Part shown: piece after piece, positions 26,407 to 44,144 of the stretch | Layout of the letters: every line of letters begins with the position of its first letter | How positions within the stretch are numbered: the stretch's first letter is position 1 | From: Eubacterium sp. | GTDB lineage: Bacteria > Bacillota > Clostridia > Lachnospirales > Lachnospiraceae | Length of the DNA stretch: 64,000 nt | Direction of reading: 5' to 3' | Assembly (NCBI GenBank): GCA_021769425.1 | Contig: JAETSX010000031.1 | Location: 1-64,000 of the forward strand | Notes under the pieces: model-generated | What the model was told of the DNA's origin: nothing | Database searches by the model: none | Seen by the model: only the letters and a program-made list of their open reading frames with translations | Made by a program: the position numbers and the translations under genes

Positions 26407-26593
26407 AAAGTTCTCCTTATTGTTACTTATTGATATTGTATGACCGTAAGATAGAAAGGGTGCTTTTTAAAGAAGAAGAACTGTGAGAAATAATGACGGA
26501 TGTTTCCGGAAAGAGACTTTTGAAAAGAGGCTGCAGAAGTTGACAGATTGCCGGCGGTTCCATATAATTTATACCGTAAACTTCGTTCTTGCG

Positions 26594-26638
26594 CAGCCTG
26601 CCGTTCGGCGGGCCGCATGGCCATCCATACTATGAAAG
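26594..26638 (+). repeat. Partial copy of the 78-bp structured repeat
   Basis: CAGCCTGCCGTTCGGCGGGC then CGCATGGCCATCCATACTAT-GAAAG matches the 3' two-thirds of the array unit, with the CCTGCCG/CGGCGGG stem kept. The end of the repeat supplies the GAAAGGAG ribosome binding site of the response regulator. Confidence 0.75.
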
Positions 26639-26645
26639 GAGTCCC

Positions 26646-27326
26646 ATGAAATACCATTGTTTAATTATAGATGATGAAAAATTACTTGCAGACAGCACAG
26701 CAGAATATTTTAATTTATTTGGAGTAAAAACAGCGGCGGTTTACAGTGCAGAAGAAAGCCGCTGTTTTTTTGAGGAACATACAGCAGAACTTTTGCTTTT
26801 GGACATCAATTTAGGAGACGGAAGCGGGTTTGCGCTGTGCAGAGAACTGCGGGAGAGGACAGATATTCCCATTCTCTTTATTTCAGCCAGGACAAGCGAT
26901 GACGATAAAATTGCCGCATTGAATATCGGCGGCGATGACTATATCCAAAAGCCCTGCTCCCTTGGCGTTTTGCTGGCCAAGGTTCAGGCAGTCTTAAAAC
27001 GTTACGGGAAAGGCAGGGAGGAAAATTATTCGGATCACAGGCTGAAAATTGATGTTCCGGGGCAGAGCCTCTTGGTGGACGGAAAAAAGGTGAAATTGAC
27101 AATGATGGAGTTCCGGCTTTTGGCCTATCTGGTTAGGAATCAGGATAAAGTGGTGTCCAAACAGGAAATCTTTGAACATGTCTGGGCAGATAAATTCACC
27201 GGAGACGGAACTTTAAATGTCCATATCCGCAGAATCCGCGAAGCCATAGAGGTAAATCCCAACCAACCGGAGTATATTGTCACTTACTGGGGCAAAGGCT
27301 ATCGGTTTGAGGGAGGCGGCAAATGA
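26646..27326 (+). CDS. OmpR-family response regulator
   Basis: 226 aa from ATG 26646 (AAAGGAG upstream). Receiver domain: IIDDEK acidic pair, LLLDINLGDGSG phosphoacceptor Asp (about residue 53), FISARTSDDD Thr/Ser, and DDYIQKPCS Lys. C-terminal winged helix (about 130-225) with VKLTMMEFRLLAYLVRNQ and TLNVHIRRIREAIE. Overlaps the kinase gene by 4 nt (ATGA). Next to a MacB/Bce-like ABC exporter it probably controls that transporter in response to a cell-envelope stress; TTTAAGGA-like direct repeats upstream of the exporter are candidate sites. Confidence 0.95.
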   Translation: MKYHCLIIDDEKLLADSTAEYFNLFGVKTAAVYSAEESRCFFEEHTAELLLLDINLGDGSGFALCRELRERTDIPILFISARTSDDDKIAALNIGGDDYIQKPCSLGVLLAKVQAVLKRYGKGREENYSDHRLKIDVPGQSLLVDGKKVKLTMMEFRLLAYLVRNQDKVVSKQEIFEHVWADKFTGDGTLNVHIRRIREAIEVNPNQPEYIVTYWGKGYRFEGGGK

Positions 27327-39973: not shown

Positions 39974-40061
39974 CTGCCGTATGAAGGCGATTTGATGCAA
40001 AATATGGAACTATCTGTGATTAAAATTCCATATTTTGCAGCTTTCGTCTTTCATACGGCAG
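39974..40061. repeat. Nested large inverted repeat
   Basis: Outer arms CTGCCGTATGAA / TTCATACGGCAG and inner arms TGCAAAATATGGAA / TTCCATATTTTGCA are all perfect. The inner hairpin could end the permease transcript, although no T-run follows. Size and symmetry resemble a miniature inverted-repeat element. Confidence 0.75.
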
Positions 40062-40100
40062 TTTTTCGTATATAATAACATTACAGTGAACTTTTGCGTC

Positions 40101-40340
40101 AGTAAACTCCCATCATGCTTAGCCTGTCGTGCGACGGGCCGCATGGCCATCCATACTATGGAAGTCGAAGACTTTCATAGTAAACTCCCATCATGCTTAG
40201 CCTGTCGTGCGACGGGCCGCATGGCCATCCATACTATGGAAGTCGAGGACTTTCATAGTAAACTCCCATCATGCTTAGCCTGTCGTGCGACGGGCCGCAT
40301 GGCCATCCATACTATGGAAGCCAAGGGCTTTCATAGTAAC
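40101..40340 (+). repeat. Array A: three 78-bp structured repeats
   Basis: Units start at 40101, 40179 and 40257. Each reads AGTAAACTCCCATCATGCTT then AGCCTGTCGTGCGACGGGCC, GCATGGCCATCCATACTATG, GAAGTCGAAGACTTTCAT. Predicted stems: CCTGTCG/CGACGGG and ACTATGGAAGTC-GAA-GACTTTCATAGT. In unit 3 the second stem is GAAGCC-AAG-GGCTTT, a T-A to C-G compensatory swap. Orientation plus. No spacers, so not CRISPR. Confidence 0.9.
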
Positions 40341-40347
40341 AGACAAT

Positions 40348-40382
40348 AAATCATTTAGCAAATAAGTATGCTCTTGAGTATA
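40348..40382 (-). repeat. Half copy of the ~92-bp palindrome
   Basis: AATAAATCATTTAGCAAATA then AGTATGCTCTTGAGTATA corresponds to the second half of the copies at 59968 and 61391. It lies just upstream of the amidohydrolase ribosome binding site. Confidence 0.75.
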
Positions 40383-40416
40383 ACATGTTTCAGAGCAGAA
40401 AGGAAAGTGAAAGTTT

Positions 40417-42024
40417 ATGCAGACATTATATTATAACGGGGATATCATTACCATGCGAAAGGAAGAAGATGCGCCTGAGGCAGTTCTTGTGTCCGAAGGC
40501 CGGATTGCCTGTGTGGGAACCCTGAAAGAAGCAGAACAGTTATGCACGCCGGAAACAGAACGGGTGGATTTGCAGGGGAGGACCCTGATGCCTTCGTTTA
40601 TTGACGCCCACGGGCACATCACTATGCTGGCTCAGTACACGGATTTTGCAAATCTTGGCAAATGTACCGATTTTCAGCAGGTGACGGAAACGCTTCAGGC
40701 ATATAAGAAGGAAAAGGACATCCGGGACGGCGTTTTGATGGCCTATGGCTATGATCATAATTTTCTGGCAGAGCAGGAGCATCCCACAAAAGCAGTTCTT
40801 GATCGGGTATCCAATGAGATTCCAATCTGCATTCTCCATACGTCCGGGCACATGTGCGTGGCAAACAGCACGCTTTTGGGGGAATGCGGCATTACGAAAG
40901 ACACTCCTGACCCGGAAGGCGGGAAATTCGGCAGGGATGAAAATGGGGAACCCAACGGATATATCGAAGAGGTTCCGGCTATGACAAAGGTTCTGCTGTT
41001 TATGTTTTCCAGGGTAAAAGCAGATTTTGGGAAACAGATGGAACTTGCGCAGGAAACTTATTTAAAATATGGAATTACAACGGTTCAGGATGGCGCAGCC
41101 AACCAATCAGCCTTTCAAAGACTTGCAGAAGTTGCAAAAGAGGGAGGATTTTGCCTGGATGTGATTGCCTATCTGCTGGCGGATGAGGCAGAACAGACGG
41201 CTCAAGCCTATCCGGCATATGGGAACCGCTATTGCAATCATTTGAAAATAGGCGGTGAGAAAATCATTCTGGATGGATCTCCTCAGGGCCGCTCTGCCTG
41301 GCTGTCAAAGCCCTATGAAGGGGAAGAGACTTACTGCGGATATCCGGCCTGCACCGATGAACAGGTAAAACAGTGGGTGAAAAATTCCATCAAAGCCGGA
41401 CGGCAGCTATTGGCCCATTGCAACGGTGATGCGGCGTCCCAGCAATATTTAGACGCATTTTCCGAAGCAGCTTCAGAATCGCCGGAAAATCCGGAACGGA
41501 TACGTGCCCTTCGTCCGGTGATGATTCACTGCCAGACTCTTCGGGAGGATCAGATGGGAGAGATGGCTCGTCTGGGCATGATTCCTTCTATTTTTGTGGC
41601 TCATACATGGTACTGGGGAGATGTGCACCTGAAAAATCTCGGTCCGGTGCGGGGAAATCATATCAGCCCTGTGAAATCGGCTTTGGATCATGGGCTTTTT
41701 TATAATTTTCATCAGGATCCCCCGGTGGTGGAACCGGATATGCTTCACACGGTTTGGTGTGCGGTGAACCGGATTACAAGAGGCGGACAGCCCATCGGTC
41801 AGGAGCAGTGCGTCAGTGTATTTGAGGCATTGAAAGGCATTACCATTCACGGCGCCTATGCTTATCATGAAGAAGATCAGAAAGGAACCTTAGAAGTTGG
41901 AAAACTTGCGGATCTTGTGGTACTTGACCAGAATCCGCTGAAAATAGATAAGATGCAGATTCGGGACATTCAGGTGTTGGAGACAGTGAAGGAAGGGAAG
42001 ACCCTTTATCGGAAAGCGGAATAG
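40417..42024 (+). CDS. YtcJ-like amidohydrolase
   Basis: 535 aa, GAAAGGAAAG ribosome binding site. N-terminal beta-sandwich (LYYNGDIITM), first metal motif FIDAHGHITML, then LHTSGHMCVANS, GYIEEVPAM, the HC/QTL region MIHCQTLREDQ, a FVAHTWYWGD segment and the C-terminal LEVGKLADLVVLDQNP typical of amidohydrolase family 3. Probably a cytosolic metal-dependent hydrolase of a cyclic amide or N-acyl compound; substrate unknown. It is bracketed by repeat arrays A and B. Confidence 0.9.
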   Translation: MQTLYYNGDIITMRKEEDAPEAVLVSEGRIACVGTLKEAEQLCTPETERVDLQGRTLMPSFIDAHGHITMLAQYTDFANLGKCTDFQQVTETLQAYKKEKDIRDGVLMAYGYDHNFLAEQEHPTKAVLDRVSNEIPICILHTSGHMCVANSTLLGECGITKDTPDPEGGKFGRDENGEPNGYIEEVPAMTKVLLFMFSRVKADFGKQMELAQETYLKYGITTVQDGAANQSAFQRLAEVAKEGGFCLDVIAYLLADEAEQTAQAYPAYGNRYCNHLKIGGEKIILDGSPQGRSAWLSKPYEGEETYCGYPACTDEQVKQWVKNSIKAGRQLLAHCNGDAASQQYLDAFSEAASESPENPERIRALRPVMIHCQTLREDQMGEMARLGMIPSIFVAHTWYWGDVHLKNLGPVRGNHISPVKSALDHGLFYNFHQDPPVVEPDMLHTVWCAVNRITRGGQPIGQEQCVSVFEALKGITIHGAYAYHEEDQKGTLEVGKLADLVVLDQNPLKIDKMQIRDIQVLETVKEGKTLYRKAE

Positions 42025-42476
42025 CTGAGTGCTGCAAATTATGGTATCTTAACGGTTCAACCTTCGGCTTCACTGTTACGGAATCTGTCCATTCCAAATG
42101 CTTACGTTCCGCTCCGGTGGACGCTGGACAAGATTGACAAAGAGATGAGATAAGGGGTATAGTAAACTCCCATCATGCTCAGCCTGCCGTCCGGCGGGCC
42201 GCATGGTCATCCATGCTGTGAAAGTCGAAGACTTTCATAGTAAACGCCCATCATGCTCAGCCTGCCGTGCGGCGGGCCGCATGGCCATCCATGCTGTGAA
42301 AGTCGAAGACTTTCATAGTAAACGCCCATCATGCTCAGCCTGCCGTGCGGCGGGCCGCATGGCCATCCATGCTGTGAAAGTCGAAGATTTTCATAGTAAA
42401 ATCAAGTCAGGCTGGAGGAGCGAAAAGTGGTGCAGCGTTTTTGTGACATATTACAACAGAAGAAAGAGGGAGACTC
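42025..42476. other. Intergenic region with repeat array B
   Basis: About 135 bp without obvious signals, then three 78-bp units (42161-42400) and a short leader to the marR ribosome binding site. The 131-aa ORF at 42203 is the translated repeat. Confidence 0.7.
42161..42400 (+). repeat. Array B: three 78-bp structured repeats
   Basis: Units start at 42161, 42239 and 42317. Compared with array A the first stem is CCTGCCG/CGGCGGG (T-A replaced by C-G) and the second is GCTGTGAAAGTC-GAA-GACTTTCATAGT, whose differences remain G-T pairable. The last unit has GATTTTC for GACTTTC, again pairable. Same orientation as A. Confidence 0.9.
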
Positions 42477-42950
42477 ATGGAAGATATGAAAGAAGCAATC
42501 CGATTAATGGAAAATCTGTATTCCGTGGAACGGATGGTATCAGTGATGGAAAAGGAGCCCAAGCATTACGGGACAGAAGAATTGCTCTATGCCAATGAAG
42601 TGCATACGCTGAAGACGGTTGCCCAGCAGGAGGGAATCACTCAAAAAGAGCTGACAGATAAGATGTTCCGCACAAAAGGCGCAACTTCTGTCATGATTAG
42701 GAAACTGGAAAAAAAGGGCTTAATTATCAGGAAAGAAGATGAAAAAGATGCCAGGGTATTTCGTCTGTATCTGACGGAAAAGGGAAAACGGGTACATAAA
42801 TGCCATTTGGAATATGATGAAAAAATAATTGGCCGGTGGATGGAGGAACTGGATTTTTCCCGGGAAGAGATAGAGGGAACCAATCAGGTTCTGGAGAAAT
42901 ATATCAGTTATGTTGAAAAATGGCTGGAACGAAAGCCGGGCAGGATGTGA
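42477..42950 (+). CDS. MarR-family transcriptional regulator
   Basis: 157 aa, AGAGGGAG ribosome binding site. Winged helix: EVHTLKTVAQQEGITQKELT, FRTKGATSVMIRKLEKKGLI and RKEDEKDARVFRLYLTEKGK give the recognition helix and wing of MarR proteins. Helical dimerization segments at both ends. The likely target is unknown; the amidohydrolase upstream is in a separate unit. Flanked on both sides by the 78-bp repeat arrays, B in plus and C in minus orientation. Confidence 0.92.
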   Translation: MEDMKEAIRLMENLYSVERMVSVMEKEPKHYGTEELLYANEVHTLKTVAQQEGITQKELTDKMFRTKGATSVMIRKLEKKGLIIRKEDEKDARVFRLYLTEKGKRVHKCHLEYDEKIIGRWMEELDFSREEIEGTNQVLEKYISYVEKWLERKPGRM

Positions 42951-42984
42951 ATATTTTATTGCGCTCATTCAGAGAGATGGTTTT

Positions 42985-43222
42985 TTTACTATGAAAGTCT
43001 TCGACTTCCATAGCATGGATGGCCATGCGGCCCGTCAAACGGCAGGCTGAGCATGATGAGAGTTTACTATGAAAGCCCTTGGCTTCCATAGTAGGATGGC
43101 CATGCGGCCCGTCAAACGGCAGGCTGAGCATGATGTGAGTTTACTATGAAAGCCCTTGGCTTCCATAGTAGGATGGCCATGCGGCCCGTCGCACGACAGG
43201 CTAAGCATGATGGGAGTTTACT
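42985..43222 (-). repeat. Array C: three structured repeats, minus orientation
   Basis: Units begin near 42985, 43063 and 43140 (period 78, 77, 77). Read on the minus strand they match arrays A and B: two units carry the AAGCC-AAG-GGCTT version of the hairpin and one the AAGTC-GAA-GACTT version. Array B and C together make an inverted pair around marR. Confidence 0.88.
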
Positions 43223-43282
43223 GTAAAAATGCATTATGGAATGGGAAAGATTTTCATAATCATGCCAGAGAGTCCATAAAAA

Positions 43283-43329
43283 GACAGTAAAATGCAACAC
43301 TTTGTAATAAAGTGTTGCATTTTACTGTC
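43283..43329. terminator. Perfect 21-bp hairpin, probable bidirectional terminator
   Basis: GACAGTAAAATGCAACACTTT-GTAAT-AAAGTGTTGCATTTTACTGTC. Arms are exact reverse complements. A and T runs are within the stem, so it could work in both directions. Its core is repeated, inverted, at 43611-43637. Confidence 0.65.
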
Positions 43330-43637
43330 ACATAATATATCGAACCAAACGGAAATTACTTAATAGGGAAAATAAAATTTTTGAAAAGATTTTTTCTGAT
43401 ATTCTTTGAGTATACGATACAGATAGCGAAAGATGAAGGGCTGTTGGATGACCGTATTGTGGCGGAGGTAAGAAAAATCAAGAATGGGAGACAGTGCAGA
43501 TGAATCTGTTGGGATTTGGCATAGAACAAGGAGCATGAAATATATTTTGAGGCAAAGGCCCCGGAAATTGATAAAAGAGCAATTTCCGGGGCTTTTTGTA
43601 TGCGTTTTCATGCAACACTTTATTACAAACTGTTGCA
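43293..43637. repeat. 345-bp segment bounded by inverted 27-bp palindromes
   Basis: Left end TGCAACACTTTGTAATAAAG-TGTTGCA and right end TGCAACACTTTATTACAAAC-TGTTGCA are inverted copies differing at one base, and each is itself a hairpin. This resembles a miniature inverted-repeat element. No target-site duplication was obvious. Confidence 0.5.
43559..43597 (+). terminator. Strong rho-independent terminator
   Basis: CCCCGGAAATTG-ATAAAAGAG-CAATTTCCGGGG then CTTTTTG. The gene it terminates is not visible; it insulates csrA from upstream transcription. Confidence 0.85.
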
Positions 43638-43729
43638 TGTTCCAGATCATAGGAAAAGCAGAACGAAACGGCTCCCTGTGTCAGGGAACTGCCGCAGCAG
43701 AGAAATTGCAGGAAACATGGAGGTTTGGA

Positions 43730-44008
43730 ATGCTAAAGCTGACCATTAAGGCAGGAGAATACCTGCTAATCGGAGATGAAGTCAAGGTAGTCTATACAGG
43801 AGGAAGCGGGGAAAACGCCCATATTCTGGTTGATGCGCCCAGGTCGATGAACATCGCAAGAAGCAGCGCATTGGAAAAGTATGGAAGGGCTGCAGATCCG
43901 GGGAATGAAGTGAAACATTACAGGGACAGGGAACTGTCACCGGAAGCCAAAGAGAAGATCAAGGCGATCCTGATGGAGGAGCGAAAGAAAGCAAGAAAAG
44001 TAAAGTAA
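43730..44008 (+). CDS. csrA: CsrA-family translational regulator with C-terminal extension
   Basis: 92 aa from ATG 43730 (GGAGG 6 nt upstream); the 174-aa track ORF starts in non-coding DNA. MLKLTIKAGEYLLIGDEVKV and a VYTGGSGENAHILVDAPRSM core match CsrA (MLxLTRKxGExIxIGDxI ... VxxGIxAP), a dimeric RNA-binding protein recognising GGA in hairpin loops. A Lys/Glu-rich tail of about 35 residues is longer than in typical 60-75-aa CsrA. It lies 183 bp before flagellin, whose leader has two candidate sites, matching the CsrA repression of hag known in Bacillus. The usual FliW antagonist gene is not in the window. Confidence 0.82.
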   Translation: MLKLTIKAGEYLLIGDEVKVVYTGGSGENAHILVDAPRSMNIARSSALEKYGRAADPGNEVKHYRDRELSPEAKEKIKAILMEERKKARKVK

Positions 44009-44081
44009 ACGTTCAGTACGCGTAACCTATCGCACAACAGGTATGGCCATCCTACTATGGAAGTCGGAGGCTTTTATAAGG
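44007..44081 (+). repeat. Degenerate copy of the 78-bp structured repeat
   Basis: AGTAAACG ... CGTAACCTATCGCACAACAG, GTATGGCCATCCTACTATGG and AAGTCGGAGGCTTTTATA align with the array unit, with the first stem partly lost. It sits in the csrA-flagellin gap. Confidence 0.6.
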
Positions 44082-44144
44082 AAATAGGGTAATTCGCCTG
44101 CCTAACCTAGGGGGCTGGCTTATTATAAAATATTAAATCAAACA

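Follow-up and report, generated by a model that had tools for sequence, protein, structure and literature searches.

A 78-bp palindromic repeat of one Lachnospiraceae genus as a probable non-autonomous mobile element with a self-regenerating target

Short palindromic units that recur between the genes of a bacterial genome raise the question of whether they are kept for a function of their fold or have been spread by a mobilising system. This question is posed by three arrays of such units around an amidohydrolase gene and a marR gene in the window analysed here, a stretch of 64,000 nucleotides from a Lachnospiraceae genome. Interspersed bacterial palindromes for which no mover is known have long been puzzling, and the CGTC-tagged REPs have none either (PMC3733652). 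The original prediction read paired changes among the units as evidence of selection for the fold, and named REP/BIME-like elements moved by a RAYT-type transposase, a repeated regulatory RNA, and nucleoid or gyrase sites as candidates.

The repeat unit and its range

The window holds nine units in three arrays of three each with a period of 77-78 bp, two arrays on the plus and one on the minus strand as predicted, and a 38-nt core pattern matched ten times in the window compared with no match in 100 shuffles. Array 1 (40101..40339, plus strand) consists of three 78-bp units and a terminal AGTAA and lies between an amino-acid permease gene and the amidohydrolase gene. Array 2 (42160..42400, plus strand; three units) occupies the intergenic region between the amidohydrolase gene and marR, while array 3 (42985..43223, minus strand; units of 77, 77 and 78 bp) follows downstream of marR, which encodes a MarR regulator, in the inverse orientation; csrA and a flagellin gene are the further neighbours. 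The unit, which contains two unlike palindromes, measures 78 bp and shortens to 77 bp if a base before TACTATG is missing. In the first unit, folding and pair counts predict for palindrome 1 (40114..40145, plus strand) a core hairpin CATGC..GCCTGTC-GTGC-GACGGGC..GCATG and for palindrome 2 (40154..40182, plus strand) a hairpin TACTATGGAAGTC-GAA-GACTTTCATAGTA. The 3' arm of palindrome 2 equals the preferred insertion target.

The window contains only a small part of the family, which has about 169 core matches in the 4.9 Mb genome (core pattern, up to three mismatches), with none for the reversed control. The repeat is abundant in this genome and two sister species and sparse in twelve more congeners: a covariance model (R1) matched at least 150 copies in this genome (G000), 107 in G021, at least 64 in G023 and 2-16 in each of twelve other species of the genus, and found no copies in 14 of 29 congeners. 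In a sample of 200 Lachnospiraceae genomes, only one of the 199 genera has the family and the other 198 are without it. A strict pattern run over GTDB representatives gave matches in Lachnospiraceae records only, one of them in a contig whose name contains MGBC, which we take to refer to the mouse gut catalogue. The exact core pattern had no match in IMG/VR and array 1 had none among phage and plasmid records, and a literature search on palindromic repeats of Lachnospiraceae returned chiefly genome-editing papers.

Insertion sites and array growth

Orthologous DNA of G000 and G023 is roughly 80-90% identical, and occupied and empty sites can be compared directly. At locus L131, G000 carries four units between ...CCGTAATCATAGTAA and CTTACC (...TCATAGTAA, units, CTTACC), and the site is empty in G023 (...TCATAATAA followed by CTTACT; ...CCGTAATCATAATAACTTACT) and in G015 (...TCATAGTAA followed by CTTACT; ...CCGTAATCATAGTAACTTACT), as well as in G018, G028, G009, G025 and G021, where the target is less similar. 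At L178 it is G023 that is occupied, with three units after AAAAAAATAGTAA, and in G000 and G015 AAAAAAATAATAA is directly followed by AAGCGG. By parsimony with these outgroups both arrays are most simply gains, and both lie 3' of sequence close to the unit right end CATAGTAA. Strict target-site duplication was considered and rejected at L178, where this right end does not repeat the target AATAATAA, though some sharing of deviations exists.

The same preference is visible across the family. In the left flanks of 105 arrays, TTTCAT was matched at 48-73% per position compared with 22-31% in the background, and its over-representation upstream of AGTAA reached P values of 7.6e-8 to 4.9e-20; the alignment anchor covers ATAGTAAAC, and the unbiased part of this test is the outer TTTC (P 7.6e-8 to 5.4e-16). 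In the window, the left target of array 1 (40093..40105, plus strand) is TTTGCGTCAGTAA, which agrees in part with the 3' end of the unit, and that of array 3 (43216..43229) reads CATTTTTACAGTAA on the minus strand. Judged from these alignments, units appear to go in directly 3' of a target that was already there and is like their own 3' end TTTCATAGTAA, which is a new result.

Other sites are less simple. G023 is without array 2 and array 3 at the orthologous places, and in the first case almost the entire amidohydrolase-marR intergenic region (42025-42451) is absent rather than the array alone, so that array 2 may have come in together with, or close to, other DNA. The junctions at L136 and at the single unit of L191 are not clean, as their flanks are rearranged, and this counts against the explanation proposed here.

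That explanation, which we consider probable, is a lineage-restricted mobile repeat in intergenic DNA, non-autonomous and confined to one Lachnospiraceae genus, which regenerates its own target. A unit comprises a GC-rich palindrome and then a second one, the 3' arm of which (CTTTCATAGTAA) would form the right end. The unit, or a block of units, would insert immediately 3' of a host sequence resembling this right end, whereby the host copy would become the left boundary and the element would bring a fresh copy at the right, regenerating the target and leaving each inserted unit flanked by direct repeats of 8-12 bp. Because an inserted unit would end in target sequence, re-insertion or recombination between direct repeats would give head-to-tail arrays without spacers, and further units could be added through new insertions, through slippage or unequal recombination, or through both routes.

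Array statistics were drawn from stretches around listed copies, with 79 arrays and 160 units in G000 and 38 arrays in G021 and G023. Among the 79 sampled arrays of G000, 34 contain a single unit, and 22, 14, 6, 2 and 1 contain two, three, four, five and six units, respectively. These sizes are near the geometric expectation with the same mean (39, 20, 10, 5, 3 and 1 arrays for one to six units), which removes the supposed regularity of three units per array. Arrays run head-to-tail with a spacing of 77-78 bp, and inverted pieces occur only as short fragments at a few right ends. At the right ends at L142:4049, L200:4046 and L258 (about 5996), an extended palindrome continues (CATAGTATGGATGGCC and similar), as if it had been copied back from the 5' side or were the remnant of a truncated inverted unit.

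Units resemble each other more within an array (0.909) than between arrays (0.857), and the first units of arrays show no clear excess of divergence over the last (25:17). Deviations of the left target recur in the 3' arm of the first unit in 14 cases compared with 6.1 in shuffles (P = 0.002), which counts against the proposed explanation and indicates that some target copying or recombination between direct repeats occurs. Together with the likeness within arrays, these recurring deviations point to a part for recombination or slippage, and we infer a mix of re-insertion and slippage in array growth. As its polarised insertions are recent, their targets can be identified and a simple rule can be given for the growth of arrays, the family opens the movement and pile-up of such repeats to direct testing.

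Candidate mobilising systems

By analogy with IS200/IS605 ends, the units would be mobilised in trans as single strands through recognition of their hairpins. The most specific form of the proposed explanation, possible but tentative, assigns this step to an ordinary IS200/IS605-type Y1/HUH enzyme that acts in trans by single-strand transposition and may have been lost in some species. The unit would then be a fusion of left-end and right-end hairpins, a minimal PATE-like element, and TTACTATG would guide cleavage at AGTAA on either side. The presence of two unlike hairpins in each unit, apparent insertion 3' of sequence that equals the right end of the element, and a second possible pairing in the unit fold, between the left AGTA and TACT, are all consistent with such an enzyme, and base-pairing target recognition is known for IS608 (PMC5934647, PMC6006769). 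The likeness to IS200/IS605 ends and their palindrome-associated derivatives (PMC6006769, PMC5934647) lies in the hairpins near both ends and, at the two polarised gains, in apparent insertion 3' of a short sequence that becomes the left boundary. The repeat differs from them by a target of about 11 nt that is like the right end and by the lack of strand bias, whereas IS608-type transposition targets the lagging-strand template (PMC6006769). A guide test of the left target against the reverse complement of the 5' arm, in which covariation between the two would be expected, was not significant (P = 0.06). Both the strand pattern and the guide test also weigh against the proposed explanation as a whole.

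The search for the enzyme itself adds to these difficulties. Y1_Tnp (PF01797) has five matches in this genome, and two of these loci, read over their full length, resemble common IS200 genes. G023, with its many copies, yielded no Y1_Tnp match, and G021 yielded only a weak sub-threshold fragment. None of the 24 Y1 loci examined in the genus has an intact unit within about 1.5 kb, an outcome that goes against the linked transposase suggested originally; the flanks of the Y1 transposase genes gave only weak, chance-level core matches when searched for unit ends, and no parent IS combining the same ends with a Y1 transposase was found among the 24 loci. Partial matches in low-copy species were rejected as the ends of a larger autonomous element, since the units found there are single and diverged, mostly keep both hairpins or their remnants, and have no gene between the hairpins. 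That these searches identified no mobilising gene and no autonomous element bounded by unit ends stands against the proposed explanation also in its general form. The repeat would work like IS200/IS605 ends, to which its relation is putative. Alternatively, a minimal 78-bp element moved by an enzyme other than a Y1 transposase could choose a target that resembles, or pairs with, the hairpin at its own end and could re-create that target each time it inserts, giving ordered head-to-tail arrays; we regard this as rather unlikely.

A GTAG-type REP/BIME (REPIN) moved by a RAYT (TnpA_REP) transposase is largely refuted and improbable. Known GTAG REPs are marked by a GTAG tag, an inverted arrangement of doublets and an adjacent RAYT (PMC2817692, PMC3116915, PMC6006769). 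With GTAG REPs, REPINs and BIMEs (PMC2817692, PMC3116915) the repeat shares a high copy number, intergenic position, palindromic structure, non-autonomy and lineage specificity, and the five Y1_Tnp matches in the genome would agree with a RAYT. The unit consensus from 82 aligned copies, however, contains neither GTAG nor GTGG, and neither is present at the foot of the hairpin; the 78-bp unit has two unlike palindromes, doublets are head-to-tail and not inverted, no Y1 gene among the 24 loci is linked to the repeat, and Y1_Tnp is absent from one copy-rich species. The REP/BIME-like part of the original prediction is retained in that the repeat is high-copy, intergenic, palindromic and apparently mobile, but the RAYT is not.

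CGTC-tagged REPs, including the neisserial dRS3 (PMC3733652), are likewise short palindromes in high copy number for which no dedicated transposase is known, but they have single stems of 8-9 bp and occur mostly as inverted dimers with negligible head-to-tail arrangement, in contrast to the 78-bp unit with its target-like right end. Similar to MITEs, the repeat is short, gene-less and dispersed in trans. Unlike MITEs, it is not enclosed as a whole by terminal inverted repeats; its ends are direct-repeat-like with AGTAA at both, and the L178 right end in G023 departs from what target-site duplication would leave.

Covariation, gene context and function

A regulatory RNA with a fold under selection would be expected to show compensated changes, and such changes exist. 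The paired variants on which the original prediction was built are present, but its statement that other changes stay G-T pairable does not hold, as the sequence CCTGCCG-TTT-GACGGG in two units of array 3 leaves a C opposite an A, which is the case in about 25 units of the family. Covariation was tested on 212 unique units from high- and low-copy species with a Fitch-based null on a FastTree tree. Two of 25 stem pairs reached p <= 0.01 compared with 0 of 300 unpaired control column pairs, and a third pair, in outer hairpin 2 and 26 nt apart, was marginal (p = 0.02). For these two pairs covariation is in this sense significant, although narrow. Both strong pairs are polymorphic between two states, TA and CG, and are only weakly linked to each other (47, 25, 35, 42; odds ratio 2.3), while each is tightly linked to its own loop and moves with it as a block, and unpaired neighbours at similar distance show comparable association. 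Further compensated changes are scattered at outer positions in several loci and several species, e.g. TTCCTATG/CATAGGAA, ACAATG/CATTGT and CTTTG/CAAAG. Since the pairs are linked to their loops and their neighbours are comparably associated, exchange of hairpin modules, or template switching or recombination between arms, could produce this covariation without selection on RNA. The claim that covariation implies selection for the fold has only partial support, from the two pairs that exceed the tree-based null, and the family illustrates that compensated changes within a repeat are no proof that an RNA is under selection.

Stable folding of the tested intact units, 3.3-4.9 standard deviations below shuffles (z -3.3 to -4.9), and an excess of G-T over A-C mismatches in hairpin 2 (90:27 array-level departures) would agree with an RNA. 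The core stem shows the opposite asymmetry (G-T 28, A-C 61), and no single strand is thus consistently favoured. Arrays are nearly all apparently intergenic, with overlapping open frames that are mostly short and largely the repeat itself. Every gene context occurs, with arrays in either orientation: the gene pairs around the 104 arrays whose neighbours could be called are co-directional in 59 cases, convergent in 24 and divergent in 21, individual assignments being approximate as gene calling was mechanical. Array orientation shows no bias relative to the local coding strand (52:45, P = 0.54) or to GC skew (62:56, P = 0.65), which argues against a gene-linked RNA. In addition, an Rfam scan of the window gave no match. 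The absence of orientation bias and the opposite asymmetry of the two stems disfavour a regulatory RNA, which we hold to be improbable.

Slippage between chance direct repeats alone, with ancient dispersal and no active mobility, would account for the likeness within arrays and for array sizes near geometric. It is quite improbable, as the target is non-random and the polarised gains are recent, lying at unrelated sites in species with about 90% local identity. A role as binding sites that are maintained for gyrase, for a nucleoid protein or for some other architectural factor would suit intergenic palindromes in both orientations but is very improbable given few or no copies in most congeners and species-specific gains at the compared sites.

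The two single copies that the original prediction placed near 26.6 and 44.0 kb are present but degenerate, with 52 and 35 bits, respectively, compared with 106-111 bits for the intact window units listed, and their folding is no better than that of shuffles. The first (26574..26663, plus strand; match at 26589) precedes a response-regulator gene. At 26625-26650 its TATGAAAG continues into AAAGGAG just upstream of the start codon, and the remnant may supply part of the ribosome-binding site of this gene. The second (44003..44084, plus strand) lies in the csrA-flagellin intergenic region upstream of the flagellin gene, and its start coincides with the csrA stop codon (AAAGTAAAGTAA). Other palindromic sequences lie close to the arrays. 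A long inverted repeat at 39974-40061, just upstream of array 1, has a diverged relative at G023:C5:18016 and no second copy was found in its own genome. A 32-nt palindrome, ATGCAACACTTTGTAATAAAGTGTTGCAT, is present in two copies (43289-43323 and 43610-43641) that flank the stretch from array 3 to csrA; its first copy is conserved in G023, and it is possibly an operator or a terminator.
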